Source: Advenella sp. FME57 (lineage in GTDB: Bacteria > Pseudomonadota > Gammaproteobacteria > Burkholderiales > Burkholderiaceae_B). Taken from it: a stretch of DNA of 64,000 nt. Made by a program: the position numbers and the translations under genes. Under the pieces are notes generated by a model. The model saw only the letters and a list, made by a program, of their open reading frames with translations. It did not search any database and had not been told where the DNA came from. The stretch covers positions 186,001-250,000 of the forward strand of contig NZ_JABUXU010000004.1 in the NCBI RefSeq assembly GCF_014897675.1. The letters run 5' to 3'. Shown piece by piece: positions 32,916 to 50,312 of the stretch. Position 1 is the stretch's first letter. Each line of letters opens with the position of its first letter.

Positions 32916-34262
32916 ATGAACGCCTTCCCTTTCTCAGAAACAGATCCCATTGTCTACGCAGGCCCGCCGCCGAAAGCGTCGGATGTCGTGATCATCGGCG
33001 GCGGCATTATTGGCATTACAACTGCCATTTTCCTTGCCCAGCATAATGTGGCGGTAACCGTGCTGGAAAAGGGCCGCATCGCGGCCGAGCAGTCGTCGCG
33101 AAACTGGGGCTGGATTCGAAAGCAGGGCAGGGATGAGGACGAACTGCCCATCATGATCGAGGCGGCACGGCTATGGCCGCAACTGGTGCAGGAGTGTGGA
33201 GAAGATATCGGACTTCGGCAAACCGGCGTGACCTATCTGGCCAGCTCTGACAAGGAAATGGCCGAGTTCGACGCGTTCATCAAGATCGCTGCTGCACACG
33301 ACATGGATACCCGGATGCTCGGCGCAGACGATGTCTCAGAGCTGATCAAAGGCATGTCCGGTGCATTCAAGGGCGCGATGATCACGCCTTCGGATATGCG
33401 GGCCGAACCCTCGCTGGCTGTTCCGGCCCTGGCCAGACTTGCACGTAGCAAGGGAGTAACGATTGTCGAGAACTGCGCGGCCAGGACGCTTGAGACAGCG
33501 GCTGGCAGCATCGCCGGGGTATGGAGCGAGCAGGGGTATATCGCTACGTCATCCGTCCTGCTGGCGGGGGGCGCGTGGTCGTCGCTCTTTTTGAAAAAAC
33601 ATGGCATTTCTATTCCCCAGCTTTCGGTCAAGGCAACTGTCGCGGCAACGCTACCGATGCCCGAGTTCCATGCCGGCGCGGCAGTAGAAAAACACATCGC
33701 TTTTCGATGCAGGATGGATGGTGGCTATACGCTGGCGCCCGCAGGCAGCCACCGGCTTTATCTTGGACCGGATAGTTTGCGGCATGCCGCGAAATATTTT
33801 CCGGCCTTGAAAGCCGACCCGCTGGGAACCCGTTATGCGCTCTGGGCGCCGGTCGGATATCCCGACGGCTGGACGACCCCTCGTGACTGGGCGCCCGACA
33901 TGCCCAGCCCTTTTGAGAGCATGCGCGTGCTCAATCCAGCTCCCGATGCCTCTGACCTTCGTTCAATCGAGCGAGGATTCAAGCGGCTTTTCCCTCAGAT
34001 GGAGCATGTTCGTTTCCAAAAGAGCTGGGCCGGGATGATTGATCTCATGCCCGATACCGTTCCCATTGTTGACTGGGTGCCTACTCATCCTGGTCTTGTT
34101 GTTGCGACAGGGATGAGTGGTCATGGATTTGGCATCGGGCCTGGCATGGGCCGCATTATTTCAGATATGATCCAGGGCAACGACGTCGGGCATAACCTGC
34201 ATCGCTTTCGGTTTTCCCGTTTTACCGATGGGAGCCCGATTCGGCTGGGCACGTCACTTTAG
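32916..34262 (+). CDS. FAD-dependent amino-acid/amine oxidoreductase (DadA-like)
   Basis: The 448 residues have the FAD dinucleotide motif VVIIGGGIIGITTAIFLAQ near residues 24-42, then VLEKGRIAAEQSSRNWGWIR, typical of the DAO family (D-amino acid dehydrogenases, glycine oxidase, sarcosine oxidase). The C-terminal GMSGHGFGIGPGMGRIISDM completes the FAD site. It would oxidise a small amino acid or amine. It converges on glpK and has no obvious operon partners. Confidence 0.88.
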   Translation: MNAFPFSETDPIVYAGPPPKASDVVIIGGGIIGITTAIFLAQHNVAVTVLEKGRIAAEQSSRNWGWIRKQGRDEDELPIMIEAARLWPQLVQECGEDIGLRQTGVTYLASSDKEMAEFDAFIKIAAAHDMDTRMLGADDVSELIKGMSGAFKGAMITPSDMRAEPSLAVPALARLARSKGVTIVENCAARTLETAAGSIAGVWSEQGYIATSSVLLAGGAWSSLFLKKHGISIPQLSVKATVAATLPMPEFHAGAAVEKHIAFRCRMDGGYTLAPAGSHRLYLGPDSLRHAAKYFPALKADPLGTRYALWAPVGYPDGWTTPRDWAPDMPSPFESMRVLNPAPDASDLRSIERGFKRLFPQMEHVRFQKSWAGMIDLMPDTVPIVDWVPTHPGLVVATGMSGHGFGIGPGMGRIISDMIQGNDVGHNLHRFRFSRFTDGSPIRLGTSL

Positions 34263-34308: not shown

Positions 34309-35814
34309 TCACGACTGTGTTTCAAGCATCGTAGCTTGCTGCACCGCATGCTCCCACTGCTGCATCAGCGCCTGGGCCCGCTCACGGCCCTGGGTGGGAT
34401 GAAAGCGCCTCTCGGCGCGCCACAGATGGGAGATCTCCTCGGTGTCGGCATAGACGCCGCTGGAAAGCCCGGCTAGATAGGCCGCGCCCAGCGCGGTGGT
34501 TTCGACGCAGGCGGGGCGCACCACGGGAATGCCCAGCAGGTCTGCCTGGAACTGCATGAGCAGATCGTTGACGCAAGCGCCACCATCAACCCGTAACTCG
34601 CTTACGGGCTGGCCACCGGCATCGGTCGCGTCGCGGCTCATCGCCGTAAGCAGCGCAGCGCTCTGATAGGCGATAGATTCCAGCGCTGCGCGGGCGATAT
34701 GGGCCAGCGTCGTGCCGCGGGTGATGCCGGTGATGGTGCCGCGCGCATCCGGCTGCCAGTAGGGGGCGCCCAGGCCGGTAAAGGCAGGCACCATCATCAC
34801 GCCGCCCGAGTCGGGTACGCTTTCGGCAAGTTGCTGCACTTGGCCGCTGTGTTCAATGGCGCGCAGGCCGTCGCGCAACCACTGCACTACAGCACCGCCG
34901 ACAAAGACGCTGCCTTCGAGCGCATATTCGGGTGTTGTATGGGGTTGGGCCGCACTGGTGGTCAGCAGGCCGTTGTGCGAGGCCTGGAACACGTCTCCCG
35001 TATGCATCAGCATGAAGCAACCGGTGCCATAGGTGTTCTTGGCCATGCCCGCTGAAAAGCAGGCCTGGCCGAACAGTGCGCTTTGCTGGTCGCCGGCCAC
35101 GCCGCCGATGGCGATGGCGCTGCCGAGCACCTGGGCATCGGTACGACCAAAGTCGCTACTGGACGCTTGCACTTCGGGCAGCAGCGAGCGGGGGATATTC
35201 AATAGCGCCAACAATTGCTCGTCCCACTGGTTGGTGTGCACGTTAAACAGCATGGTGCGGCTCGCATTGCTCACATCGGTTACATGTCGGCGGCCTGCGG
35301 TCAGTTGCCAAATAAGCCAGCTGTCTACGGTGCCAAAGGCCAATTCACCCCGCTCGGCCGCAGCGCGCGCGCCGGGCACATTGTCAAGCAGCCACTGCAG
35401 CTTGGTGCCGGAAAAATAAGCATCCACCAGCAGGCCGGTCTTGGCCTGAATTGTTGCTGCATAACCCTGTTCGCGCAGTTGCGCGCAAGCCGGCTCGGCA
35501 CGACGATCCTGCCAGACAATCGCATGGTGCACGGGTTCGCCGGTAGCGCGATTCCATAGCACCGTGGTTTCGCGCTGGTTGGTTATGCCTACAGCACGCA
35601 CATCGGCTGCGGCGACGCCGGCCTTGGCCAGTGTCTCGCGTGCGGTGGCCAGTTGGGTGCGCCAGATCTCCCGCGGGTCGTGTTCGACCCAGCCGGGGCG
35701 CGGGTAAATCTGCGACAGTTCCATTTGCGCCTGGGCGACACAATGGCCTTTGGCGTCAAAGAGAATGCTGCGCGAGCTGGAGGTGCCCTGGTCCAGGGCA
35801 AGTAAATAGGTCAT
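34309..35814 (-). CDS. glpK: Glycerol kinase
   Basis: This 501-residue FGGY-family kinase matches glycerol kinase along its length: [47 protein letters not shown], and [13 protein letters not shown]. It phosphorylates glycerol to glycerol-3-phosphate. It lies next to glpR on the same strand; glpD lies 10 kb away behind the PhyH/ABC-transporter cluster. No glycerol facilitator gene is seen here. Confidence 0.95.
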
Positions 35815-35995: not shown

Positions 35996-36760
35996 TTATT
36001 GGGCTACGATGCATTGCACGCCGGCCTCTTGCAGTAGTGCAGGAAATGGCTCGGGCGGCGGCATATTGGTAAATAGCCGGTGTACCTGATCCATGCGCGC
36101 CAGCTCCACCATGGCCTGGCGATGGAACTTGCTGTGGTCGGCAGCAAGCCAGACTTCGCGCGATTGGGCAATAATGGCCTGGGCCACCTTAACTTCGCGC
36201 AAATCGAAGTCACGCAAGGTGCCATCCTGCTCGATTCCCGAGATGCCAATGACGCCGATGTCTACCCGGAACTGCCGCATGAAGTCTACGGCGGTTTCAC
36301 CGACGATACCGTGGTCCAGGGAACGAACCACGCCGCCGGAGACAATGACTTCGCAATCGGGATTATCGGCCAGAATGGCCGCTACGTTCAGGTTGTTGGT
36401 GATGACCCTCAAGGCGCGATGACGCAACAGTTCCCGTGCGATGGCCTCGGTGGTTGTGCCGATGTTCAGAATAAGCGAACACCCTTCGGGAATGGCCTTT
36501 GCCACTTCACGTGCAATGGCTCGCTTTGGCTCTTCATTGAACAGCCGGCGTTGCAGATAGGCAATATTCTCAGTGGTCGATTCCGGTATGCGTACTCCGC
36601 CGTGATAGCGGGTCAGCACGCCTGTTTCGGCCAGCTGTTTGACGTCCCGGCGAACAGTTTGCAGTGTGACTCCGAATCGATCAGCCAGCGCTTCGACAGA
36701 CATAGACCCTTGTCGTCGGACTTCATCGATCAACTGATCCTGGCGAGGATTTGCACTCAT
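35996..36760 (-). CDS. glpR: DeoR/GlpR-family repressor of glycerol metabolism
   Basis: The 254 residues have the DeoR-type helix-turn-helix (DQLIDEVRRQGSMSVEALAD, then RFGVTLQTVRRDVKQL) and the sugar-phosphate-binding domain (GCSLILNIGTTTEAIARELL, VIVSGGVVRSLDHGIVG). Its place beside glpK and the presence of GlpR-type half-sites in its promoter region support a GlpR role with glycerol-3-phosphate as inducer. It is divergent from the PhyH operon. Confidence 0.88.
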   Translation of the reverse strand: MSANPRQDQLIDEVRRQGSMSVEALADRFGVTLQTVRRDVKQLAETGVLTRYHGGVRIPESTTENIAYLQRRLFNEEPKRAIAREVAKAIPEGCSLILNIGTTTEAIARELLRHRALRVITNNLNVAAILADNPDCEVIVSGGVVRSLDHGIVGETAVDFMRQFRVDIGVIGISGIEQDGTLRDFDLREVKVAQAIIAQSREVWLAADHSKFHRQAMVELARMDQVHRLFTNMPPPEPFPALLQEAGVQCIVAQ

Positions 36761-36856: not shown

Positions 36857-36912
36857 AAAACGAACATAATAGAAAATAAGAAATCAATATAGAAAACACT
36901 TGTGTTCGTTTT
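36857..36912. promoter_or_regulatory. Paired GlpR-type half-sites before the PhyH operon
   Basis: AAAACGAACA (36857-36866) and TGTTCGTTTT (36903-36912) are perfect 10-base inverted arms 36 bases apart. The first, read as TATGTTCGTT, fits the E. coli GlpR half-site WATGTTCGWT at all ten positions; TGTGTTCGTT at 36901 fits at nine. They lie between glpR and the first PhyH gene, the second only 20 bases before its ATG. This supports GlpR control of the PhyH-ligase-ABC cluster. Confidence 0.6.
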
Positions 36913-36932
36913 AACTATTTGTACCGTCACAG

Positions 36933-37775
36933 ATGACCCCAACCCCTGAACAACTGATTGAATGCAAGCAACGCTTTGACCGCGATGGCTATGTGGTGCT
37001 TGAAAGCCTGATCGCACCGGCCCATGTCGAGCGGCTGAAAGAGGCCTTGCTGTCCGTTGAAGCGCACCACGGTTTTGGATACGCAAAAACTTCGTTTGAA
37101 GGGCTCAAGACTGTTCGCATTAATAATTTGCTGGCTTATGACGAGGCTTTCTGGGACGTTCCCCTGCAGCCATCGGTACTGGCGCTTGCCGAGTCGCTGC
37201 TTGATCGCGAGCTGCTGCTCTCTTCCCTGTGCTCGCTGACTATGGGGCCGGGTCAGACCGCACAACCGCTGCACGAGGATACACAGCAACTGGCGCTGCC
37301 GCGTCCGCGCCCGCCGCTTGCAGTCAATGCAATGTGGGCGTTGAGTGATTTTACCGAAGCCAATGGTGCGACCCGTATCGTGCCAGGCAGCCATAAGCTG
37401 GATCATGCGCCCGCGTACGGGATTGAAGTGCAAACCGTTGCAGCGACCATGCCTGCCGGCAGCGTGATGCTGTTTGACAGCGCCTTGTGGCATAAAGGCG
37501 GCGCCAATACGACCGATGAGCGTCGCTATGCGCTCTCGTGCTATTACTGTGCGGGCTGGATGCGTCAGCAGGAGAACCTGCTATTGGGTATTCCCCGCGA
37601 AACGGCCGCAAAATTTCCGCGCCGCCTGCAGGAGTTATGTGGCTACGGGATATACAAGGGCCAATACGGTCATATCGAAAACAATGATCCGATCGAACTG
37701 CTGGGCCAGGAAGGCCGCCCCACGGTGTGGGAAGCGACGGATCGCAAGTTGCAACGACGCCAAGCACAAAGCTGA
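36933..37775 (+). CDS. Phytanoyl-CoA dioxygenase (PhyH)-family oxygenase
   Basis: This 280-residue Fe(II)/2-oxoglutarate oxygenase has the facial triad His114 and Asp116 (QPLHEDTQ) plus His187 (SALWHKGG), with Arg197/198 (DERRYAL) as the likely 2-oxoglutarate anchor. The NGATRIVPGSHKL motif is typical of the family. Such enzymes hydroxylate, or oxidatively remove groups from, an unactivated carbon. It is the first gene of the plus-strand run behind GlpR-type sites and is followed two bases later by an acyl-CoA ligase. Its substrate is unknown. Confidence 0.9.
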   Translation: MTPTPEQLIECKQRFDRDGYVVLESLIAPAHVERLKEALLSVEAHHGFGYAKTSFEGLKTVRINNLLAYDEAFWDVPLQPSVLALAESLLDRELLLSSLCSLTMGPGQTAQPLHEDTQQLALPRPRPPLAVNAMWALSDFTEANGATRIVPGSHKLDHAPAYGIEVQTVAATMPAGSVMLFDSALWHKGGANTTDERRYALSCYYCAGWMRQQENLLLGIPRETAAKFPRRLQELCGYGIYKGQYGHIENNDPIELLGQEGRPTVWEATDRKLQRRQAQS

Positions 37776-37777
37776 TC

Positions 37778-39304
37778 ATGACGGCTCCAAACGCACTGCA
37801 GGGGATTCCTGCGTCGGTCGTACATCTGCTGCGCGATGCCGCGCAAGATTATCCCCGGCATTGGGCCTTGCGCTTCGAGGGGCAACGCCTTTGCTACGCT
37901 GACTATGCAGGTATCGTTGGCGCACTGGCGCAGGAGCTGCGTTCCACGGTGGCGCCCGGCGAGCGGGTAGGACTGTTGCTGCAAAACTCGCTTGATCTGG
38001 CGATCGTCACCTTTGCTGTCCATGCCCTGAGGGCGCAGGTTGTTGCGCTCAATCCGGGCTACGGTGAACGTGAATTGCAGGCGATGCTGGCCGATGCCGA
38101 TGTGTGTCTGCTCATCGTCGATGACAGCGTGCGTGTGGATCTGCCAACGGTTTGCAGCTTGCCTGTTGAACGCATCCTGCAGACGGGCAGCAGCGGTTAC
38201 AGTTTTTTGCGCTTGCTCGATTCACAAAGACCGTTGCCGCAGGATTTGCCTGGCCACGCCGATCTGGCAACGTTGCAATACACCGGTGGCACCACCGGCC
38301 AGCCCAAGGGCGTAGATATTTCGCATGGTCATCTTGCAGCTAATTTGCTGCAGCGCGAGGCCCGTCTGTCGACGCGGCCGGGCCAGGAGGTGGTGCTATG
38401 CCCCATGCCGCTGTTTCATGTATCGGCCGTGGCGATGTGTCTGCATTTAAGTGCCTTTGCCGCGTCCGAACTGCTTATCCAGCGGCGCTTTGACGCCAGG
38501 GCCGCCGTACATGCACTGGTGCATGAGGGGGTGACCTTGATGTCGGGGGCGCCCGCCATTTTTCATGATCTTCTGCGCCAGCCTGATATCGAGCAGGTTA
38601 AAGCAGGCACGCTGCGCGCCTGCTTTAGCGGTGCGGCGGCATTGCCTGAACGCACGCTGAGGGAATTTGAACGGCTGACCGGTTGCCCGATTTATGAGGG
38701 CTATGGACAAAGCGAAGCTGGCCCCTGTCTTACCTACAATCCGGTGCAAGGTGTGCGCAAGCCTGGTTCCGTCGGCCTGCCTGTGCCTGGCTGCGAGCTG
38801 CGCATTGTTGATGAACAGGGCAATAATGTACCCATAGGTGCGGTGGGCGAAATTTGCGTACGAGGGCCACAGGTGATGGCCGGCTATCGCAATCGACCCG
38901 ATCTGACACAGCAGGTATTGCGGGATGGGTGGCTCTATACCGGTGATCTGGCAAGCCAGGATGAGGACGGCTATGTGTTCATCCAAGGCCGTTGCCAGGA
39001 AACGATCAATGTTGGCGGATTCAAGGTGTATCCGCTGGAAGTTGAGCAGACGCTGCGCGCGTGCGCGAGCGTGGGCGACTGCGCAGCGTTCGGCGTACCT
39101 GATGAGCGCCTTGGTCAGGTAGTTCACGCCTGGGTTACGCCTGCCCCAGGTTGCGCGCCCAATGAACAGGCGCTGCGCGCATATTGCGCGTCGCAACTTG
39201 CGCATTACAAAACACCCAGACGCATTGCCATTACCGACGCGCTTCCGCGTACGGCTGTGGGCAAGCTTGCGCGCAAGGAACTTAAACCCGTTGGCGCGCC
39301 ATGA
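37778..39304 (+). CDS. AMP-dependent acyl-CoA synthetase/ligase
   Basis: This 508-residue ANL-family adenylating enzyme has the phosphate-binding loop TLQYTGGTTGQPKGV (166-179), YEGYGQSEAGP, YTGDLASQDEDGYVFIQGR and the catalytic Lys496 in RTAVGKLARKEL. It activates a carboxylate as acyl-AMP and then acyl-CoA. It begins right after the PhyH stop and precedes a second PhyH gene, so oxygenation and CoA activation are linked in one operon. The acid substrate is unknown. Confidence 0.92.
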   Translation: MTAPNALQGIPASVVHLLRDAAQDYPRHWALRFEGQRLCYADYAGIVGALAQELRSTVAPGERVGLLLQNSLDLAIVTFAVHALRAQVVALNPGYGERELQAMLADADVCLLIVDDSVRVDLPTVCSLPVERILQTGSSGYSFLRLLDSQRPLPQDLPGHADLATLQYTGGTTGQPKGVDISHGHLAANLLQREARLSTRPGQEVVLCPMPLFHVSAVAMCLHLSAFAASELLIQRRFDARAAVHALVHEGVTLMSGAPAIFHDLLRQPDIEQVKAGTLRACFSGAAALPERTLREFERLTGCPIYEGYGQSEAGPCLTYNPVQGVRKPGSVGLPVPGCELRIVDEQGNNVPIGAVGEICVRGPQVMAGYRNRPDLTQQVLRDGWLYTGDLASQDEDGYVFIQGRCQETINVGGFKVYPLEVEQTLRACASVGDCAAFGVPDERLGQVVHAWVTPAPGCAPNEQALRAYCASQLAHYKTPRRIAITDALPRTAVGKLARKELKPVGAP

Positions 39305-39340
39305 TCGCGCCGCGTTTTGCAACATAACAAAGGAAGACAG

Positions 39341-40273
39341 ATGCTGAAGAATATCGATATGGACAAGCTCAAGCACCAGCTCGCCGAAGACGGCTATGCG
39401 GTGGTTGAAAACGTGCTTGACCAGGACCAGTTGGAGCGCATTCGCGAAGTTGTCGCCAAGCGCATGGCGCATGAGCTGGCCAATCCGCTGCCACTCGATG
39501 ATGAGAAGCATGAAGACGACGAAGAAATTCGCGCTTACTATAAAAAACACTATACCGTCAGTGACGCCGAAGCCGAGCGCATGGTGGCGCGTATTCACCA
39601 GTACCGTCGCGACAACGCCGGCGCGCGCTGGCCCATGCCGATCAGCAAGGTTTCTAAAAATTTCCTGCACCTGCCTACGTTGTTCGATAACGACAATTCG
39701 CAGCGCGTCTGGAACCTGCTTACTAAAGAGCCGGAACTCATTCCCCTGATCGAGCACCCGGTTGTGTTGCCGATGGTGCAGCATATGATGGGTGAAGACT
39801 GTAACCTGCACGATTTCCAGTCCACCAGCATCGGCCCGCAAACCGGTGGTGGTGCATGGCACGTGGATGCGCCGCTGGGCCAGATTGCCGAGCCGCTGCC
39901 AGAGTTTCCGCTGACGCTGCAAAACGTCTGGATGCTGGATGACTTTACTGCCGATAATGGCGCGACACGCGTGATGCCAGGCAGTCACAAGTTGCGCAAG
40001 TCGCCGCCGTGGGGCAGCGATCCGCTGGAAGGCGAAGTCACGCTGACCGCGCCAGCCGGTTCCGTCGCAATATGGCTATCGAACACCTGGCACCGTTCAG
40101 GCTCGAATCATACCGATGCCAAGCGTCGCGCCATCCTGTGCAACTACAACGTGTCCTGGTTGCGCTTTTTCGCGGACTTTACGTCCACGCTGCCGCCAGA
40201 AGTGATTCCTACGCTGTCAGAGCGTGCCAAGTACCTGCTGGGTTTTGGTGCTTGTGCTCCGAAAATTCGTTGA
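39341..40273 (+). CDS. Phytanoyl-CoA dioxygenase (PhyH)-family oxygenase, second copy
   Basis: The 310 residues have the triad His174 and Asp176 (GAWHVDAPLG) plus His251 (SNTWHRSG), with Arg262/263 (AKRRAIL) as 2-oxoglutarate ligand candidates. NGATRVMPGSHKLRK is the family signature. It differs strongly from the first PhyH protein and is longer at the N-terminus, so the two are not a recent duplication and probably act on different intermediates. The ATG at 39341 follows GGAAGACAG. Confidence 0.9.
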   Translation: MLKNIDMDKLKHQLAEDGYAVVENVLDQDQLERIREVVAKRMAHELANPLPLDDEKHEDDEEIRAYYKKHYTVSDAEAERMVARIHQYRRDNAGARWPMPISKVSKNFLHLPTLFDNDNSQRVWNLLTKEPELIPLIEHPVVLPMVQHMMGEDCNLHDFQSTSIGPQTGGGAWHVDAPLGQIAEPLPEFPLTLQNVWMLDDFTADNGATRVMPGSHKLRKSPPWGSDPLEGEVTLTAPAGSVAIWLSNTWHRSGSNHTDAKRRAILCNYNVSWLRFFADFTSTLPPEVIPTLSERAKYLLGFGACAPKIR

Positions 40274-40283
40274 TTGCCTACTC

Positions 40284-41513
40284 ATGCAGAAATACAACGT
40301 CAGTATTGATCTGAAACGCCCCGACCTCGCGGGCGGGCAAGTCCATGGCTATTGCGCGCCGCAATTTTTGCCTGTGCTGGACGCATTCGTCGAAAATTTT
40401 GACGGTGACATCGAGCATGGCGCATCTCTGGCCGTCGAACAGGGCGGACAGACCGTGATCGATGTCTGGGGCGGTTTTGCGGACTTGCCGACACAACGCC
40501 CGTGGCAGCAGGATACGGTTGGCGTGGTGTTCTCCAATACGAAGGCGGCAACGGCCTTGTGTGCGCACATCCTGGCCGATGGTGGTGCACTGGATATTGA
40601 CCAGCGCGTTGCACACTACTGGCCCGAATTTGCCGCACAAGGCAAGGGTGACGTTACCGTGCGCATGTTGTTGGACCATTCGGCAGGCGTGCCTGCGCTT
40701 CGGCAGATGCTGCCTGACGGCGCGGTATTTGACTGGACCGAGATGAGCACGCGCCTTGCCAACGAGGCGCCGTACTGGAAGCCGGGAACCAGCGTGGGCT
40801 ACCATGGCCTGACGTTTGGCTGGCTGGTGGGTGAAGTGGTGCGACGCGTTGCCGGACAGTCGCTAGGGCACTTCTTCCAGGAGCGTGTTGCGAGGCCATT
40901 GGGCTTGGATTTCTGGATAGGCCTGCCCGAAAGCGAAGAGCCAAGAGTGGCCAAAATTATGCCGGCCAGGCCAGCGGAGCAGCCGCGCAATGCGTTTGAG
41001 CAGGCCATTGCGACCGCGCCCGAGAGCATCAGCAATCTGTATTTTCGCAATACGGGTGGCTGGCGGCCCAGCGGTTTCAATTCGCGCCAGGGCCATGCCG
41101 CCGAAATTGGTGCGGCCGGCGGCATCACCAACGCACGTTCTTTGGCCCGCATGTACAGTGCGCTGTCACTGGGCGGCGAGCGCAACGGCGTGCGCGTGAT
41201 CGGGCATGCAACGCTTGAACGTGCTGCCGAGGTTTCATCGGCAACCAACGAAGACTTGTGTCTGCTGGTGCCGACACGCTTTGCAGCCGGCTTTATGCGC
41301 AGTATGGATAACCGTGCACGCGGGCTGGACAGCGCCAGTTTCGGACGTGATGCTTTTGGCCACGTCGGGGCGGGTGGGTCACTGGGTTTTGCCAGTGAGC
41401 AACATCGCATCGGCTTTGGCTACACAATGAATCACATGGGAGCGGGCGTGCTGCTTAACGCGCGCGCCGATCGGCTGACGCAAGCCTTGTATGGCGTATT
41501 GGCCCGGTCATAA
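40284..41513 (+). CDS. Serine hydrolase of the beta-lactamase / family VIII esterase type
   Basis: The 409 residues hold the class C beta-lactamase fold. The nucleophile motif is Ser84-x-x-Lys87 (VFSNTKAAT), Tyr173 (VGYHGLTFGWLVGEV) is the likely base, and HVGAGGSLGFA near the C-terminus forms the third element. Proteins like EstB hydrolyse small esters or amides. No signal peptide is visible, so it is probably cytoplasmic. Placement between the PhyH genes and the ABC importer suggests it opens an ester or amide of the imported compound. Confidence 0.88.
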   Translation: MQKYNVSIDLKRPDLAGGQVHGYCAPQFLPVLDAFVENFDGDIEHGASLAVEQGGQTVIDVWGGFADLPTQRPWQQDTVGVVFSNTKAATALCAHILADGGALDIDQRVAHYWPEFAAQGKGDVTVRMLLDHSAGVPALRQMLPDGAVFDWTEMSTRLANEAPYWKPGTSVGYHGLTFGWLVGEVVRRVAGQSLGHFFQERVARPLGLDFWIGLPESEEPRVAKIMPARPAEQPRNAFEQAIATAPESISNLYFRNTGGWRPSGFNSRQGHAAEIGAAGGITNARSLARMYSALSLGGERNGVRVIGHATLERAAEVSSATNEDLCLLVPTRFAAGFMRSMDNRARGLDSASFGRDAFGHVGAGGSLGFASEQHRIGFGYTMNHMGAGVLLNARADRLTQALYGVLARS

Positions 41514-41557
41514 ATTTGTAGACATTCTTTTTTAAAAATCAGCAGGAGACATGGTTC

Positions 41558-42808
41558 ATGACCACTCGTAAAAATTTTATCGTTCGCGCCTGCCTTACCG
41601 GCGCGCTTGCAATGCTTGGCGTAAGTGCTGCACATGCGGCAGATCCGGTCAAAATCGGCTATCTGATTCCGCTGTCGGGCAGCGCTGCTGCGTCGATCGG
41701 CCGTGATATGTCGCGTGCGACGCATCTGGCAGTAAAGCATATCAATGAAAGTGGCGGCATCAAATCGCTGGGCGGCGCCCAGTTAAAGCTGCTGGAGTCC
41801 GACACCAGGGGCGATCCGAAAGTGGCGCTGACTGAAACCGAAAGACTGATCACGCGTGAAAAAGTGCCTGTTTTGCTTGGTGCGTTCCAGAGCGGTACCA
41901 CCTTTCCGGCCACAGCCGTGGCTGAAAAGTATAGTGTGCCTTGGGTGGTAGACCTGGCAGGCAAGGGCGAAATTACCGAACGCGGCTTCAAATACGTTTT
42001 CCGTGCCACTCAGGTGCCGGCCGCTGCCAATGCAGAAGGTATGGCTGATTTTGTTGCCTACGCCAGCAAGGCGACCGGCAAGCCGGCAAAAACTGTGGCC
42101 ATGGTCTATGAAAACACCGATTGGGGCCAGGACATGGCCAATACACTGCGCAAGAAGTTCAAGGAACAAGGCGTGGAAATCGTACTGGACGAAGGCTATC
42201 CGCCCAACAGCCCCGACCTGCGTCCGCTGGTCCTGAAAATCAAGGGTCGCAAGCCTGACGTTGTCACGGTCACTTCATACGCTGCCGACGCCGTGCAACT
42301 GCACAAGCTGCTGGCGCAAATGCGCGTGTCGGCCATGGGATACATCGGCAGCGCAGGCGGCCAGATCGACAGCGGCTTTCTACCGCAAGTGGGCAAGGGT
42401 CCTGCCAAGGGCGTGTTCACGACCAACGGCTGGGCAGGATACGAGTCTGCCGTTACCACGCCTTTTGCCAAGAAGTTCTGGGATGAATTTACCGGGACGT
42501 ACAAAGCCGAACCCAATGAATTGTCTGTGAGCGCCTATGGTGCGGTGTGGGTGATCAAAGATGCGCTGGAGCGCGCCGGCAAGGCCGAGCCGCAAGCCAT
42601 CCGTGATGCGCTTGCCACAACCAGCATCAAGGGGACCGATCTGAACAAGCTGCTTGGCTACGACATTGTGATTGATGAGAAGGGTCAGAACCCGCTCAAA
42701 AAATTCGTGGTGCAGCAGATCACGCCCGAGGGAGAATACCGCACCATCTGGCCGGAAGATCTGGCGTCCAAGACCTACAAAATGGTCTGGCCTGCCGCCA
42801 CTTACTGA
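41558..42808 (+). CDS. Branched-chain-amino-acid-type ABC transporter, periplasmic binding protein
   Basis: The 416 residues carry a signal peptide (MTTRKNFIVRACLTGALAML, cut after HAA or AHA) and a type I binding-protein fold: VKIGYLIPLSGSAAASIGRD, GAFQSGTTFPATAVAEKY, GWAGYESAV. It belongs to the LivK/UrtA/amide-binding group and captures the imported ligand. Four transporter genes follow, completing a LIV-type importer. Because the catabolic genes just upstream act on organic acids, the ligand is probably not an ordinary branched-chain amino acid. Confidence 0.92.
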   Translation: MTTRKNFIVRACLTGALAMLGVSAAHAADPVKIGYLIPLSGSAAASIGRDMSRATHLAVKHINESGGIKSLGGAQLKLLESDTRGDPKVALTETERLITREKVPVLLGAFQSGTTFPATAVAEKYSVPWVVDLAGKGEITERGFKYVFRATQVPAAANAEGMADFVAYASKATGKPAKTVAMVYENTDWGQDMANTLRKKFKEQGVEIVLDEGYPPNSPDLRPLVLKIKGRKPDVVTVTSYAADAVQLHKLLAQMRVSAMGYIGSAGGQIDSGFLPQVGKGPAKGVFTTNGWAGYESAVTTPFAKKFWDEFTGTYKAEPNELSVSAYGAVWVIKDALERAGKAEPQAIRDALATTSIKGTDLNKLLGYDIVIDEKGQNPLKKFVVQQITPEGEYRTIWPEDLASKTYKMVWPAATY

Positions 42809-42894
42809 TCAGGACTCTGGTCATCGCTTTGTCGGCTGCCGCCTGATTTGACATCACCGGCAGTCCGCTTTTTTCAAATACGTGAGGATTCGCT

Positions 42895-43773
42895 TTGAGC
42901 ATTTATCTTCAAGCATTGCTCGGTGGCATTGCCACCGGAGCAGTATATGGTCTGATCGCGCTTGGGCTGAGCCTGCAGTTTGGCGTGATGAAGATCATCA
43001 ATTTCGCGCACGGCTCGTTCCTGATGGTCGCGATGTACGTGACCTACTACACCTGTACCAATTTCGGCCTGCACCCGCTGGCGGCGGCGCCCATCGCGGC
43101 CGTTGTCCTGTTTTTTGTGGGATGGGCGTGTCAGCGCTTTTTCATCGATGGCATCTATCGCAAGGAATCTTCGCGTGAGCCTATCGGCGTGCTGATCTTC
43201 ACGACCGGTCTGTGGATCTTTCTGGATTATTTCGCGCTCGCGCTGCTGGGACCCGACAGCCGGATGATTGACAGTCCCTGGTCCAACGAGGTGGTGATCA
43301 TGGGTGACCTCATATTCACGTATCCGCAGATTGCCGGCTTTGTGATTGCTGCGCTTGTCACCATCGGGCTGGTTGCCTTTATGCGCTATACGGCGCTGGG
43401 CCGCGCCATTCGAGCAACGGGCCAGGACCGCGAGGCAGCCAGCGTGCTGGGTATCGACAGCAAGCGTGTCTACCAGCTGTCCTTTGCTATCGGCCTTGGC
43501 GTACTGGGTATTGCAGGCGCGCTGCTTTTGCCCATGTATCCGGTCAACCCCTTCGTTGGCGACATCTTTGGCATGCGTGCCTTCGTGATCGTGGTGCTGG
43601 GCGGGATCGGCTCGATCGCTGGTGCTTTCTGGGGCGGGATTATCGTGGGCATTCTTGAATCCGTGGGCAGCCAGGTAATTCCGGTTACCTATGCTGAAGC
43701 GCTGATTTTCCTGCTGTTCCTGGGCGTGATGTATTTCCGTCCGAGCGGATTGTTTGGCGTGGAGAAAGAATGA
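42895..43773 (+). CDS. LIV-type ABC transporter permease (LivH-like)
   Basis: The 292 residues have about eight membrane segments. GVMKIINFAHGSFLMVAMYV is the LivH signature, and GALLLPMYPVNPFVGDIFGM and GGIGSIAGAFWGGIIVGI the conserved C-terminal parts. The start is TTG behind GTGAGGATTCG. It forms the transmembrane pore together with the LivM-like protein, whose start overlaps its stop. Confidence 0.93.
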   Translation: MSIYLQALLGGIATGAVYGLIALGLSLQFGVMKIINFAHGSFLMVAMYVTYYTCTNFGLHPLAAAPIAAVVLFFVGWACQRFFIDGIYRKESSREPIGVLIFTTGLWIFLDYFALALLGPDSRMIDSPWSNEVVIMGDLIFTYPQIAGFVIAALVTIGLVAFMRYTALGRAIRATGQDREAASVLGIDSKRVYQLSFAIGLGVLGIAGALLLPMYPVNPFVGDIFGMRAFVIVVLGGIGSIAGAFWGGIIVGILESVGSQVIPVTYAEALIFLLFLGVMYFRPSGLFGVEKE

Positions 43774-44753
43774 TGACAGTGCAAGGTTCAAAACATTCAT
43801 CGCTATGGGGCGCGCTCATTGCCGTGCTGGCGATTGCGCCGTTGTTTACCGGCAGCCAGTACGTGCTGTCGATCGCGGTCATGACACTGCTGTATGCCTA
43901 TCTGGCGTTGTCCTGGAATGTGCTGGGCGGTATCGCCGGACAGCTCTCACTGGGACATTCAGCGTACTTTGGCATTGGCGCGTATGCCTCGACCTGGTTC
44001 TTCGTCAATATGGGCATCAGTCCCTGGATCGGCATGTGGATTGGTGCGGCATTGGCCATTGTTGCGGCGGTGATCGTGGGAATGTCGAGCTTGCATTTGC
44101 GTGGCGCATACTTTGCGCTTGCCACCATTGCCTCGGCCATGGTGATCAAAACGCTGGTGGAAAATGCCGATGACCTGCTCGGCGGCCCACGCGGAATGGA
44201 AGTAACACTGTTGCGCGATGCGCCGTGGCAATTCCAATCGACCAGCAAAGAGTTCTACTATGTGATCGCGCTGGTATTTGTGGTGCTGGCCTTAGTTATC
44301 AACTGGCGCATCCTGCGCAGTCGTTATGGTTACTACCTGGCTGCCGTGCGCAACGACCAGGACGCGGCATTGGCGCTAGGCGTGCCCACCACACGCTATA
44401 AGCTTTATGCCGCGATGATCAGCGCAGCCATGACCGCTATCGGCGGCACATTCTACGCCCAATTCGTGCTGTTCGTCAGCCCGGACAAGGTGTTCGGCGC
44501 GAACCTGGGCGTGGTGATTGCGGTGGTTTGCATCATCGGCGGCCGGGGTACGCTGTGGGGTCCGGTATTGGGCGCATTGTTGCTGTTGCCAAGCGAAGAG
44601 CTGGCCCGCTCATTCTCCGGGGGCCTTCTGGGGGCGGATATGATGCTCTACGGCTTGCTGCTGATGCTGGTGATCTGGTATGAGCCACGCGGCCTGGTCG
44701 CGATCTTTCAGCGCTGGTTCAAGCGGCCGGTCAAGCAGGGAGTAACGAAATGA
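43770..44753 (+). CDS. LIV-type ABC transporter permease (LivM-like)
   Basis: This 327-residue inner-membrane permease has WNVLGGIAGQLSLGHSAYFG and the conserved RNDQDAALALGVPTTRYKL coupling loop for the ATPases. It overlaps the LivH-like and LivG-like genes by four bases each (ATGA), so the subunits are translationally coupled. Confidence 0.93.
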   Translation: MMTVQGSKHSSLWGALIAVLAIAPLFTGSQYVLSIAVMTLLYAYLALSWNVLGGIAGQLSLGHSAYFGIGAYASTWFFVNMGISPWIGMWIGAALAIVAAVIVGMSSLHLRGAYFALATIASAMVIKTLVENADDLLGGPRGMEVTLLRDAPWQFQSTSKEFYYVIALVFVVLALVINWRILRSRYGYYLAAVRNDQDAALALGVPTTRYKLYAAMISAAMTAIGGTFYAQFVLFVSPDKVFGANLGVVIAVVCIIGGRGTLWGPVLGALLLLPSEELARSFSGGLLGADMMLYGLLLMLVIWYEPRGLVAIFQRWFKRPVKQGVTK

Positions 44754-45481
44754 CAAGCACGACACTGCTGGAATTTGACGGCGTGGGCAAAAGCTTTGGT
44801 GGCCTGCGCGCAATCGATAATGTAAGTTTCAAGGTCAATGATGGCGAGATTGTCGGATTGATCGGCCCCAATGGCGCCGGCAAGACCACACTATTTTCCA
44901 TGGCCTCCGGATTTCTGAAGCCAACCGACGGACAAATCCGTTTCCAAGGCAAACGCGTGGACGGGTTTGATCCTCCGCATATCTGCCGTGCCGGCCTTGT
45001 GCGCACATTCCAGATCGTCAAGCCGTTTGGCGAGATGACTGTGATAGAAAACGCCATGGTTGGTGCATTTTTGCACCATGCCAGGCCACAAGACGCACGC
45101 GAGGTGGCTGCCAGGGTGTTGCAGCAGGTCGGGCTGGGCGCCCGTCAGGAGCAGGTTGCCAAAACGCTGACGCTATCGGGCCGCAAGCGGCTTGAAGTGG
45201 CCAAGGCGCTGGCTACACATCCGAAACTGCTGTTGCTCGACGAAGTGATGGCTGGCCTGACCAGTGTCGAGACTGCCGAAATGCTGGAGTTGATTCAAAG
45301 CCTGCGCGCATCGGGCGTGAGCATTCTGGTCATTGAACACAATATGAAGGCAGTGATGAGCCTGTCGAACAAGATCGTGGTTATTCAGTACGGTAAAAAG
45401 ATTGCGGAAGGGACACCGGTAGAGGTTGCCAACGATCCGCAAGTGATCTCTGCATACCTGGGAGGCGAGCATGCTGCTTGA
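44750..45481 (+). CDS. LIV-type ABC transporter ATPase (LivG-like)
   Basis: This 243-residue ATPase has Walker A GPNGAGKTTLF, signature TLSGRKRLEVAKALA, Walker B LLLLDEVMAGL and the His switch VIEHNMKAVM. The signature (LSGRK for LSGGQ) and DEV for DEP are variants seen in one subgroup of LivG-like ATPases. It pairs with the LivF-like ATPase to energise uptake. Confidence 0.93.
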   Translation: MTSTTLLEFDGVGKSFGGLRAIDNVSFKVNDGEIVGLIGPNGAGKTTLFSMASGFLKPTDGQIRFQGKRVDGFDPPHICRAGLVRTFQIVKPFGEMTVIENAMVGAFLHHARPQDAREVAARVLQQVGLGARQEQVAKTLTLSGRKRLEVAKALATHPKLLLLDEVMAGLTSVETAEMLELIQSLRASGVSILVIEHNMKAVMSLSNKIVVIQYGKKIAEGTPVEVANDPQVISAYLGGEHAA

Positions 45482-46178
45482 TGTGAACGACGTAAGTTCG
45501 GGCTATGGCGATGTGCAGGTTCTCAATGGCATCAATATCAATGTGAAAGAGGGCGAGATTGTCAGTATTGTTGGCGCCAATGGCGCAGGCAAGACGACGC
45601 TGATTCGCGCCATCATGGGCACCTTGCCGGTCACCAAGGGGCAGATTCATTTTGGCGGCAAGCGCATTGACGGCCAGGAATCGCACCTGATTGCGCGGGC
45701 CGGCATTGCCCAGGTGATGGAAGGGCGTCGCCTGTTTGGCCATATGGAAGTGGAAGACAATCTGCTGGTTGGTGGAGATATTCTGAACGATAAGGCGCAG
45801 CAGCGCCAAAACCTGGAATGGATCTACAGCATGTTCCCGCGTCTGAAGGAGCGTCGCCGCCAACTGGCGCGCTCGTTCAGTGGCGGGGAGCAGCAGATGC
45901 TGGCCATCGGCCGGGCGTTGATGACCTCGCCCAGGTTGTTGTTGCTGGACGAGCCTTCCATCGGCCTGGCACCCATTATGGTCAAGGATATTTTTGAAAA
46001 ACTGCCCCTGATCCAGGGTCGCGGCGTCACGATTTTGCTGGTCGAACAGGATGTGCACCGCTCGCTCAGCATATCGGGCCGCGGGTATGTCATGGAACAT
46101 GGCGAAATTGTCCTGGCCGGTACGGGGCAGGAGCTACTCAATAACGAGCGCCTGCGGCAAGCCTATATGGGTATCTGA
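45471..46178 (+). CDS. LIV-type ABC transporter ATPase (LivF-like)
   Basis: This 235-residue ATPase has Walker A GANGAGKTTLIRAI, the signature FSGGEQQMLAIGRALM and Walker B LLLLDEPSIGLAP, the standard LivF features. It overlaps the LivG-like gene by 11 bases and is the last gene of the importer. A strong hairpin follows. Confidence 0.93.
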   Translation: MLLDVNDVSSGYGDVQVLNGININVKEGEIVSIVGANGAGKTTLIRAIMGTLPVTKGQIHFGGKRIDGQESHLIARAGIAQVMEGRRLFGHMEVEDNLLVGGDILNDKAQQRQNLEWIYSMFPRLKERRRQLARSFSGGEQQMLAIGRALMTSPRLLLLDEPSIGLAPIMVKDIFEKLPLIQGRGVTILLVEQDVHRSLSISGRGYVMEHGEIVLAGTGQELLNNERLRQAYMGI

Positions 46179-46424: not shown

Positions 46425-48029
46425 ATGACTGTTGAATTAAATACTTTGCCGTTGAAAACCGGGCGTGCCCAATTGCTGGCCCGCCTGGCTGAACCCAAAA
46501 CCTATGACCTGGCGGTCATCGGTGGCGGTGCGACTGGCCTGGGTGTGGCGCTGGATGCAGCTGCCCGCGGCTTTTCGGTGGTGTTGCTGGAGTCGCATGA
46601 CTTTGCCAAAGGCACCTCGTCACGGGCGACCAAACTCGTGCACGGCGGTGTGCGCTATCTGGCACAGGGCAATATCGCGCTGGTACGTGAGGCGCTGCAC
46701 GAGCGTGCCACGCTGCTGCACAATGCACCGCATATTGCGCAGCCTCTGGCTTTCGTCATGCCCTCGTATAAGCTGCTGGACACGCCGTTCTACGGCATTG
46801 GCCTCAAGGCATACGACGCGCTGGCGGGCAAGGCCGGCCTGGGGAACACCCAGTTTCTGAGCACTCGCCAGACACGAGCGCTGTTGCCTACTGTACAGCC
46901 GCAAGGGCTCAAGGGTGGCGTCAAATACTGGGACGGGCAGTTCGACGATGCCCGGCTGGCGCTGGCGCTGGCTCGAACGGCAGCACGCCATGGCGCACTG
47001 CTATTGAACTACTGCCCGGTTACGAAACTGATTCACGACAACGGGCGCGTGGCAGGGCTGGTGTGCGAAGATGGTGACTCGGGCTGCAGCTACCAGGTAC
47101 GCGCAAGATGTGTGGTCAACGCTACCGGTCCGTGGGTGGATGCCTTACGTGAGATGGACGGCGCCGAATCGGGTCGCGCCACCCGACCCATTGTTGCCCC
47201 CAGCCAGGGCGTGCATGTGGTGGTGGACCGGGACTTTATGCCTGGCGACCATGCGCTGCTGGTGCCCAAGACGGCAGACGGCCGGGTGCTATTTGCCGTG
47301 CCATGGCTGGGCAAGGTCATTCTTGGCACCACGGACACGCCACGTCACGACCTGGCCCGCGAGCCGGCGCCCTTCCAGGCCGAACTGGACTTTATCCTGA
47401 GCGAGGCGGGGCATTACCTGAACCGTCGTCCCACTATGGCCGACGTGCGTAGTATGTGGGTGGGTCTGCGCCCGCTGGCCCGGCCCCAGGGCGACGATGG
47501 CGAAAATACCAAGGGTATCAGCCGAGAACATACTGTACTCACCAGCGCCTCTGGCATGGTGACAGTCACGGGTGGCAAATGGACAACTTACCGTGCCATG
47601 GCCGAGGATGTCCTGCAAGCATGCTTTACCGCGGGAGCGTTGCCCACCCGTGCGGGCGGGGTCACTGTAAATTTGCCACTGGTTGGCGCGCCACCCGACG
47701 GGACCACGCAGCACAATATGCATATGCCGCAGGGCCTGCATTCCTACGGCAGCGAGGCCGCTGTCGTAAACGCGCTGCCCGGTGCCGACCGCTGGCTGAC
47801 CGACGGCCTGAGCGAGGCCATGGTGCGTTTTGCCGTTAGCCACGAGTATGCCTGCACCGTGGAGGATGTCCTGGCGCGACGCTCGCGCTTGTTGTTCCTT
47901 GACGCCAGGCAGGCCGCGGCTGTCGCCCCGCAGGTCGCTGCCATCCTGCAGCAAGCGCTGCAGCAGGATGAAGTGGGACTGCCGGCGTTTCTGGCACTGA
48001 CACAACAGTATATGGGTCAGAATGATTGA
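46425..48029 (+). CDS. glpD: Glycerol-3-phosphate dehydrogenase, aerobic type
   Basis: This 534-residue FAD enzyme of the inner membrane surface oxidises glycerol-3-phosphate to dihydroxyacetone phosphate and passes electrons to quinone. It has the FAD motif LAVIGGGATGLGVALDAAAR, KGTSSRATKLVHGGVRYL, and KGGVKYWDGQFDDARL. It completes the glycerol pathway with glpK, although the PhyH/ABC cluster sits between them. No clear GlpR dyad is visible right before it. Confidence 0.95.
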   Translation: MTVELNTLPLKTGRAQLLARLAEPKTYDLAVIGGGATGLGVALDAAARGFSVVLLESHDFAKGTSSRATKLVHGGVRYLAQGNIALVREALHERATLLHNAPHIAQPLAFVMPSYKLLDTPFYGIGLKAYDALAGKAGLGNTQFLSTRQTRALLPTVQPQGLKGGVKYWDGQFDDARLALALARTAARHGALLLNYCPVTKLIHDNGRVAGLVCEDGDSGCSYQVRARCVVNATGPWVDALREMDGAESGRATRPIVAPSQGVHVVVDRDFMPGDHALLVPKTADGRVLFAVPWLGKVILGTTDTPRHDLAREPAPFQAELDFILSEAGHYLNRRPTMADVRSMWVGLRPLARPQGDDGENTKGISREHTVLTSASGMVTVTGGKWTTYRAMAEDVLQACFTAGALPTRAGGVTVNLPLVGAPPDGTTQHNMHMPQGLHSYGSEAAVVNALPGADRWLTDGLSEAMVRFAVSHEYACTVEDVLARRSRLLFLDARQAAAVAPQVAAILQQALQQDEVGLPAFLALTQQYMGQND

Positions 48030-48828: not shown

Positions 48829-49815
48829 ATGAAAAGCTTAAAAAACAAGTTGCAGCGAGCGTGCGCATTCGCTTTATTTGCAACCAGCATATTGCTATTG
48901 CCGTTTGTGGCGCGCGCCGATGATTTTCCGACCAAGCCTATTACCATTGTGGCTCATACCGCTGCGGGTTCGTCGACGGACCTGTTTGCACGAGAGCTCG
49001 CCCAGGCAGCGACCCCAATTTTTGGCAAACCCGTGGTTGTCGTTAACAGACCGGGCGGAAGTGGTGCAACTCAAATGGCGCTCATTAGCTCAGCGGCACC
49101 GGATGGGTATACCGTAGGGGTGAACACCAGTTCTCACGTCACGGCGATGCTGACGAACCTGAAGGGGACTTACACTCCGGCGGATTTTTCGTGGATTGTA
49201 CTCAATCAGATCGATCCCTATATTCTCGCCGTCCATGCTGATAGTCCATATAAATCACTTAAAGACTTGGTTGAGGCGGCAAAAGGAGGGCAACGAGTGA
49301 AGATAGGAGGATATGGTGCAGTGGGTGCCTCCCACAATATCGCAGTACAAATATTCGCCGACAAGGCTGATATGCCTGTTACCTGGGTCAGTTACCCCGG
49401 TTCGGGAGATGCCGCGACTGCTGTATTAGGCAAACATATCGATGCTGTCAGTATCAACCCGGGCGGTACGCTCGCCTTCGTGGCCGCAGGACGCATAAAG
49501 ATTCTAGGGGTGATGAGTGACAGTCGGGTCAGCAGTCTTCCTGATGTCCCGACTTACGCAGAGGCGGGTTATGACGTCGATACCTCCTGGAAACAGATAC
49601 GAGGCCTGTACGGCCCGAAAGACATGCCTGAAGATATTCAGAAAAAATTGGCTGATGGCTTCCGTAAAGCCATGGAGACGCCGCGTTTTAAAGAGTATAT
49701 GAAGCGTTCTGCCCTGGAAGCCGGTGATCTGGGCCCCGGCGAGTACCGAAGCTTCATTGACGATGCCACGAAAAAAACACAACAATGGTTAACCAAACTG
49801 GGAATTACCCAATGA
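48829..49815 (+). CDS. tctC: Tripartite tricarboxylate transporter receptor (TctC/Bug)
   Basis: The 328 residues have a signal peptide (to about RADDF) and the Bug motifs FPTKPITIVAHTAAGSSTD, NRPGGSGATQMALISSAAPD and VSYPGSGDAATAVLGK. It captures a carboxylate for the TctB/TctA membrane complex encoded directly downstream. The loop normally VPYRG is VSYPG here, hinting at a different ligand. AAAGGAG lies upstream of the ATG. Its stop overlaps the tctB start. Confidence 0.93.
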   Translation: MKSLKNKLQRACAFALFATSILLLPFVARADDFPTKPITIVAHTAAGSSTDLFARELAQAATPIFGKPVVVVNRPGGSGATQMALISSAAPDGYTVGVNTSSHVTAMLTNLKGTYTPADFSWIVLNQIDPYILAVHADSPYKSLKDLVEAAKGGQRVKIGGYGAVGASHNIAVQIFADKADMPVTWVSYPGSGDAATAVLGKHIDAVSINPGGTLAFVAAGRIKILGVMSDSRVSSLPDVPTYAEAGYDVDTSWKQIRGLYGPKDMPEDIQKKLADGFRKAMETPRFKEYMKRSALEAGDLGPGEYRSFIDDATKKTQQWLTKLGITQ

Positions 49816-50303
49816 GTCCGGAGCTGACCAATTCATCGGATAAAGCGCCCGCTGTGCTGATGTTAAACGGGAGGGTTGCGCTGGTTGTTGTGGCACTGCT
49901 TAGTTTGTGCTGCTTTACCTGGATGGCCTGGCAGAGTACGGCTTTTCCTGCGGCGTTTAATAGCGCGGAAGTGGGCGCAGCTCGGGTGCCACTTATTGCT
50001 TGCACCGGTGGAATTCTGACCAGCATCGGATTGATCGTACACGCGATCCGTCGAAAGTTCGACAGCATGGCAACTATTGCCATACGAAAGCCGTTAGGCG
50101 TTTTGGTCGCGTTAGCGCTGACAATTCTATGGGTTTGGGGGATGCCTCATATAGGGTTTTATCTTGCTTCGGTCGTCGTCGTGCCGCTCATCATGCTGGC
50201 CGGGGGAGAACGACGTCCGATGATGCTGGTGCTATCAACAATTGGTTTCGTTGTATTCGTGCATGTGTGCTTCTCTTTTCTGCTGGACATCGAGTTTCCT
50301 TAG
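49812..50303 (+). CDS. tctB: Tripartite tricarboxylate transporter small membrane subunit (TctB)
   Basis: This 163-residue protein has four hydrophobic segments, including VALVVVALLSLCCFTWMAWQ and VLVALALTILWVWGM, and matches TctB in size and place. It is needed with TctA for sodium or proton coupled uptake. The ATG overlaps the tctC stop (ATGA). Confidence 0.87.
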   Translation: MSPELTNSSDKAPAVLMLNGRVALVVVALLSLCCFTWMAWQSTAFPAAFNSAEVGAARVPLIACTGGILTSIGLIVHAIRRKFDSMATIAIRKPLGVLVALALTILWVWGMPHIGFYLASVVVVPLIMLAGGERRPMMLVLSTIGFVVFVHVCFSFLLDIEFP

Positions 50304-50312
50304 GAGTTTGCT

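Follow-up and report, generated by a model that had tools for sequence, protein, structure and literature searches.

Operons that combine a LIV-type importer with a CoA ligase exist for aromatic or aliphatic acids, and phytanoyl-CoA alpha-oxidation consists of a ligase, PhyH and a 2-hydroxyacyl-CoA lyase. To our knowledge, the glp regulon of Escherichia coli and Pseudomonas includes no PhyH, ligase, esterase or LIV importer. In E. coli, glycerol-3-phosphate (G3P) releases the regulator GlpR, according to the excerpted text of PMC5493358. In Pseudomonas aeruginosa, excerpts of PMC8151288 describe an AraC-type regulator, GliR (PA3027), which activates PA3026-PA3024, encoding a predicted glycerol kinase and a GlpD homologue; this operon has a limited spread and its precise role is left open there. 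Here we describe a nine-gene module of Advenella sp. FME57 (genome G000, 4.74 Mb in 59 contigs), located among glycerol genes in a stretch of 64,000 nucleotides (contig NZ_JABUXU010000004.1, positions 186,001 to 250,000; “the window”). We read it, with a probability of about 0.52, as serving the catabolism of a small carboxylic compound conjugated to glycerol. The compound is most likely an ester of the acylglycerol type, which would be imported and hydrolysed, its glycerol being sensed as G3P through GlpR.

The module occupies positions 36933-46178 of the window as nine plus-strand genes sandwiched between glpK/glpR and a GlpD-family gene, in the order PhyH1, acyl-CoA ligase, PhyH2, family VIII-type hydrolase and a five-gene LIV-type importer. 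Neighbouring genes among the nine overlap or stand at most 86 bp apart, an operon-like spacing. The genome is close to that of A. incenata DSM 23814, with which it shares 98% identity over PhyH2. The importer is complete, with a binding protein, two permeases and two ATPases (the first four recognised by family match, livF by its sequence and place), and the whole is an importer plus catabolic operon, a known kind of arrangement. Promoter-like and terminator-like matches between 34000 and 48500 were about as frequent as by chance (7 and 17, vs 6.2 and 15.2 in shuffles).

Linkage of the module to glycerol genes

A tblastn search of the fetched loci with the window proteins, in which L010 and L037 are one record and were counted once, gave 15 distinct loci in which eight or all nine of the genes are present. 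Fourteen carry all nine and that of Lacisediminimonas profundi carries eight, the family VIII gene not being found there. The hosts are three Advenella (that of the window, A. incenata (G071) and G134), five named Achromobacter species, G199, three same-family genomes (G024, G056 and G110), L. profundi, G1037 from the Lacisediminimonas family, and Azospirillum halopraeferens, in which PhyH2 and the hydrolase are placed last. G199 is probably an Achromobacter as well, its glpK being almost the same as in an Achromobacter xylosoxidans genome.

Glycerol genes adjoin the module in 5/15 loci, which represent three of the six lineages as we grouped them, and the arrangements differ. In the three Advenella, glpK-glpR lies upstream of the module and an accessory glpD downstream. 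G1037 carries glpR (62% identity), a full GlpD, the whole cassette and then glpK (57%); its glpD is 35% identical to that of Advenella, and the two score 773 vs 310 bits to PRK12266. In L. profundi the order is an AraC-type gene, the cassette minus the family VIII gene, a gene for a Hydrolase_4 protein and glpK, and this glpK, the sole one found at E 1e-80 in the genome, overlaps the Hydrolase_4 gene by 4 bases. The best PDB matches of the Hydrolase_4 protein are two unnamed alpha/beta hydrolases and then monoacylglycerol lipases, which make up most of the named ones.

On a tree of 41 glpK sequences, the label for linkage to the cassette has to change three times or more. Hits with an internal stop or of less than about 420 residues were excluded from this tree, as were the Advenella copies from G040 and G150 and a second copy each from G071 and G134. 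In a cassette tree of eight genes from 14/15 loci (L039 left out, and the hydrolase omitted as absent from the L. profundi locus), a branch with 100/100 support (SH-aLRT/bootstrap) splits G1037 from Advenella, and G1037 groups weakly (72/76) with G024, G056 and G110. Taken together, the two trees argue for at least two, and probably three, separate linkages between glp genes and the module. As a rough figure that was not computed, four flanking slots and about 4 glp genes among about 4300 give a chance adjacency near 0.4% per lineage, and linkage in three of six lineages is therefore unlikely by chance.

The glp set at this locus is an accessory second set, since the Advenella genome has another glpK and another GlpD-like gene (on contig C20, 37% identical to the window one). 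The window-type glpK was found in 4/10 Advenella genomes (88-100% identity) and the other type (66-69%) in 9/10, while glpR at E 1e-80 or better occurs in 3/10 and the window-type glpD in three of the six tested. Some glpK is present in all 11 cassette genomes examined (7/7 of one set, the three Advenella and G1037), and in 26 of 50 order genomes, many of which are small.

The module is rare and patchily spread. In genome samples that are partial and overlap in part, PhyH1 was matched at E 1e-30 or better in 7/200 family genomes, its own included. At E 1e-40 it was matched in 2/399 order genomes, the one other than its own at 35% identity, so that no order genome among the 399 besides its own reached orthologue level (at least 65%), and in 5/398 phylum genomes, its own included, with G855 at 65% and three others at 34-40%. 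The Lacisediminimonas family gave 2/195, Lacisediminimonas included, and the Azospirillum family 1/82, the known host. The G855 relative (L043:13429-14331) is an orphan among housekeeping genes and was set aside as uninformative on function; matches of 34-41% in other genomes and four plasmids were treated as paralogues and dropped. Comparison of the flanks of 9/15 loci (open reading frames of at least 120 residues, glp and cassette genes excluded, pairs L013/L039 left out) showed no family shared between lineages except a weak one (31-32% identity, G024 vs G056). The module was probably horizontally transferred.

The earlier note on this DNA had described an unbroken plus-strand run of two PhyH genes, ligase, hydrolase and LIV importer between glpK/glpR and glpD, and the open reading frames and family matches agree with it. 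Its placement of the run in the glycerol regulon applies as to adjacency, here and in two further lineages, and not as to origin: the module is self-contained and not a glp-regulon member by origin, because no glp gene was found beside it in 10/15 loci (fetched stretches of about 20 kb) and a divergent AraC-type regulator accompanies it in 11/15. The note's own test, conservation beside glp genes in relatives, has a mixed outcome, with the linkage seen in three lineages and lacking in most relatives.

Upstream half-sites and the regulator

The 172-bp gap before PhyH1 contains a perfect 10-bp inverted pair, AAAACGAACA and TGTTCGTTTT; any such perfect pair appeared in 5/1000 dinucleotide shuffles of the gap. 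The motif TGTTCGTTT occurs three times in the window vs 0.51 expected, two of the three in this gap, and both TGTTCGTTTT arms are conserved in all three Advenella. The 300 bp ahead of the first gene contain two copies of TGTTCGTW, counted on either strand, in each of the four GlpR-linked loci and none in 11/11 AraC-linked loci; moreover, in A. incenata and G1037 the two upstream sites are the only ones across the 19.9-kb locus. The E. coli GlpR half-site has the consensus WATKYTCGWW, which occurs 7 times in the window vs 3.5 expected (7/100 shuffles reached 7), once in this gap. By eye, only looser TGTTCA/TGTTCG cores lie before the window glpD, and no half-site core was seen before the window glpK. 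The GlpR-type half-sites before the first gene, first noticed in the earlier note, are present as the inverted pair, a putative GlpR operator, and half-sites are conserved in the 4/4 GlpR-linked loci.

In 11/15 loci phyH1 and an AraC-type gene are divergently oriented; the Lacisediminimonas protein has HTH_18 and AraC_binding_2 domains, and the remaining ones were recognised by 42-53% similarity to it. No match to the Lacisediminimonas gene was found in the three Advenella or G1037 loci, where glpR is divergent instead, in G1037 to a glpD that stands ahead of phyH1. Probably, the AraC-type regulator does the switching in most hosts, and Advenella and G1037 look like cases of AraC-to-GlpR replacement.

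Enzymes, importer and the proposed pathway

The PhyH domain covers most of both PhyH proteins, with 110.8 and 94.3 bits against a cut-off of 22. In Fe/2-oxoglutarate enzymes HxD...H provides the metal residues and an Arg 11 residues after the distal His serves 2-oxoglutarate. The HxD motif of PhyH1 is kept in 15/15 loci, WHVD of PhyH2 in every aligned row, and in both proteins every aligned row keeps the distal His with Arg 11 residues further. With the metal Asp in place, a role as halogenase was rejected. The best PDB match of both proteins is the same structure, DhiD (8zyb), on which nothing was found in the open-access literature; their PDB relatives are mixed, with names that we take to be mostly those of natural-product oxygenases, and the phytanoyl-CoA dioxygenase structure 2a1x matches PhyH1 weakly (5.2e-4). 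Relatives of PhyH2 (about 51-59% identity) also occur without the cassette, in Poribacteria, planctomycete, actinomycete and chloroflexi metagenome-assembled genomes (L018-L031), where nearby ligase, PhyH1 or ATPase matches are weak (26-33%) and limited to a few of them.

Among solved enzymes, the ligase scores best with fatty-acyl-CoA synthase and with feruloyl-, oxalate- and malonyl-CoA synthetases. The hydrolase is closest to the carboxylesterases 8j5v and 5gmx and to the fenoxaprop-p-ethyl hydrolase 7y3z; its five highest-scoring solved relatives all carry esterase or hydrolase names (272 to 149 bits), class C lactamases reaching at most 50 bits. Its SNTK and YHG motifs are kept in the 14/14 loci possessing the gene, and no signal peptide was evident on it by eye. 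As for the importer, LivJ and LivK hold the amino group of the ligand with an acidic residue; at this position 15/15 copies of the binding protein have Ala, as does its closest solved relative, 8wch, against Glu in 4n0q and Asp in 4gnr. Import of a free alpha-amino acid was for this reason judged unlikely.

The repeated linkage to glp genes suggests that the compound releases glycerol, and glycerol as a product is the simplest account of why glp genes were captured repeatedly. The earlier note had proposed glycerol or G3P as a released product; release of glycerol, with G3P following through GlpK, is favoured by the conservation of the set as one unit, the three-lineage linkage and the TGTTCGTW sites going with GlpR. 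The note's interpretation is in this way partly supported, and strengthened on glycerol. The note had also left the choice between an ester and an amide. An ester of glycerol is indicated by operons that are alike except for their ester hydrolases, which are of two unrelated kinds, one being from the monoglyceride-lipase group. An ester is also favoured over an amide because the Lacisediminimonas operon has a monoglyceride-lipase-like protein and no family VIII gene. The glycerol would probably be made inside the cell after import, since Lacisediminimonas encodes its glycerol kinase within the operon and its genome, whose completeness is not stated, yielded no MIP-family facilitator; glycerol also diffuses.

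In the proposed mechanism, the LIV-type importer, assigned by family, would take up the conjugate, which the family VIII-type esterase, or in Lacisediminimonas the monoglyceride-lipase-like hydrolase, would split to give an organic acid and glycerol. The glycerol would be turned into dihydroxyacetone phosphate by GlpK and GlpD, whose genes adjoin the module in Advenella and G1037 and in other hosts lie, at least in part, elsewhere. Judging from the sites, G3P would free GlpR from operators before the first gene, such that a product of the module would induce it. The ligase would make an acyl-CoA, and the two Fe/2-oxoglutarate oxygenases may hydroxylate the acid or the acyl-CoA and so pass it to ordinary oxidation; they may also act on the intact conjugate, and the steps may follow another order.

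Features of the module and its flanks in the window, with gene starts refined by eye
Feature	Position	Strand	Basis
PhyH1, Fe/2-oxoglutarate dioxygenase family	36933..37775	+	Pfam PhyH 1.5e-31; metal and Arg motifs conserved
Acyl-CoA ligase (ANL family)	37778..39304	+	AMP-binding 4.8e-83; TGGTTG.PKG and GK motifs
PhyH2, second Fe/2-oxoglutarate dioxygenase family protein	39341..40273	+	Pfam PhyH 1.6e-26; WHVD, WHRS..R motifs
Family VIII-type (beta-lactamase-fold) esterase	40284..41513	+	Beta-lactamase 5.4e-67; SNTK/YHG motifs
LIV-type substrate-binding protein	41558..42808	+	Peripla_BP_6 3.1e-60
LivH-type permease	42895..43773	+	BPD_transp_2
LivM-type permease	43770..44753	+	BPD_transp_2
LivG-type ATPase	44750..45481	+	ABC_tran, BCA_ABC_TP_C
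LivF-type ATPase	45471..46178	+	ORF sequence and conserved place beside livG in 15/15 loci
glpR, DeoR-family regulator, divergent	35996..36760	-	PRK10906 264.5 bits, under its cut-off of 331; still best model
Accessory glpK, divergent	34309..35814	-	TIGR01311 701.5 bits; second genomic copy on C29
Accessory GlpD-family FAD oxidoreductase	46425..48029	+	DAO, DAO_C; PRK12266 310 bits, under its cut-off of 360; still best model
Inverted pair AAAACGAACA-N36-TGTTCGTTTT, putative GlpR operator	36857..36912	.	Repeat search, conservation

The ligase start in the table is an ATG inside the longer listed open reading frame, and the PhyH2 frame reaches back to an alternative start, TTG 39317. Beside glpK stands a DAO-family oxidoreductase gene (window 32916-34262), which in A. 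incenata, G134 and G115 lies beside or some kb from the same glpK. Downstream of glpD follows a tripartite tricarboxylate transporter set (TctC, TctB, TctA; 48829-51794, plus strand). The other glpK of the Advenella genome (L062:8018-9484) has no match to the window glpR or glpD within 19 kb around it, and the one MIP-family gene found in this genome is on a different contig from it. Beyond the Lacisediminimonas AraC-type gene, L011:70-4537 contains what by eye resemble genes for a ligase, an acyl-CoA dehydrogenase, a thiolase-like and an OB-fold protein, of which the ligase alone was matched by blast (29%); they may serve the acid part.

Alternative readings and known systems

Several points weigh against the acylglycerol reading. 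Release of glycerol is read from comparative genomics, and the compound and its chemistry are proposed from gene content, in which ligase, hydrolase and importer belong to broad families. The half-site argument rests on position and conservation, because the four GlpR-linked loci amount to two lineages and the half-site with mismatches allowed is near chance (9 vs 12.3 expected; 9 vs 7.2 expected); in addition, the AraC-linked genomes of the comparison were not matched for base composition. Most loci, as given above, have no adjacent glp gene, and the close Advenella G115 has the same glpK type without the cassette (no PhyH1 match). The three label changes in the glpK tree can also be read as a single gain followed by two losses, and Lacisediminimonas groups with Achromobacter weakly (74/78) in the cassette tree. 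Its monoglyceride-lipase-like gene stands at the operon end, a different position from that of the family VIII gene elsewhere, and that its product does the family VIII job is our inference. Finally, the structure models of PhyH1 and the binding protein (nine-row alignments; mean pLDDT 46.8 and 43.8) were too poor for reading substrate pockets.

The ten loci without a glp neighbour, together with the accessory nature of the Advenella glp set, would suit a substrate free of glycerol, with the glp genes adjacent merely through a shared accessory region or with G3P as a carbon-state signal. We hold this to be rather unlikely, given that three lineages carry different glp genes in different orders, that the only glpK detected in Lacisediminimonas is joined to the operon by an overlap, and that the half-sites follow GlpR (4/4 vs 0/11). 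A glyceryl ether or other non-ester adduct would give a job to the two oxygenases, which are conserved and keep their metal and 2-oxoglutarate residues intact: one PhyH enzyme would hydroxylate the carbon beside the ether oxygen, hemiacetal collapse would free glycerol, or glyceraldehyde or dihydroxyacetone, the esterase would first trim an acyl group and the ligase would handle the freed acid. O-dealkylation by Fe/2-oxoglutarate enzymes is established chemistry (TfdA), and the glp linkage is compatible with any glycerol release. Nonetheless, such a substrate offers no special reason for an ester hydrolase, of two kinds, in every one of 15 loci, and no ether-cleaving enzyme was recognised among the PDB matches of the PhyH proteins, which makes it a doubtful candidate. 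Equally doubtful to us is a new PhyH-driven route, where an oxygenase cleaves or opens the glycerol-bearing side and repeated GlpR capture lets glycerol induce uptake of its precursor.

Perhaps the least probable substrate, and in our view a very improbable one, is a quaternary amine or betaine. In a glyceryl-betaine head group, glycerol is ether-linked to an amino acid-like betaine; the LIV importer would take up the zwitterion and the oxygenases would demethylate it or cleave the ether, so that importer, oxygenase and glp genes would all be used. Against this, the acidic position that would hold an amino group is Ala in 15/15 binding proteins, and the CoA ligase would be without a clear role.

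If the acylglycerol reading is right, an anonymous oxygenase-ligase-importer operon becomes a testable pathway, one product of which is predicted by its having been captured repeatedly by glycerol genes, and two uncharacterised oxygenases would gain a bounded set of substrates to test. The locus would also offer an apparent AraC-to-GlpR replacement with candidate operators found only where GlpR is present.

A search of the open-access literature found nothing on this gene set, on Advenella with phytanoyl-CoA or on PhyH with GlpR; a diuron transcriptome names a PhyH gene, which could not be placed in this module from the excerpt of PMC11192067. The module locus resembles the GliR system in its divergent AraC-type regulator, predicted glycerol kinase, GlpD homologue and limited spread, and differs from it in that the excerpts of PMC8151288 make no mention of an importer, a PhyH protein, a CoA ligase or an ester hydrolase in that operon. 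With phytanoyl-CoA alpha-oxidation it shares a ligase next to PhyH, whereas the module is without a lyase and 2a1x is a weak match to PhyH1. The glp regulon of E. coli and Pseudomonas has the same GlpR-type regulator, kinase and dehydrogenase, and the half-site is near the E. coli consensus, but here an accessory copy flanks another module. Lastly, as in operons of LIV importers and CoA ligases, we find a binding protein of the Peripla_BP_6 group, a five-gene importer and a ligase, while the two PhyH oxygenases and the glycerol link are the module's own.

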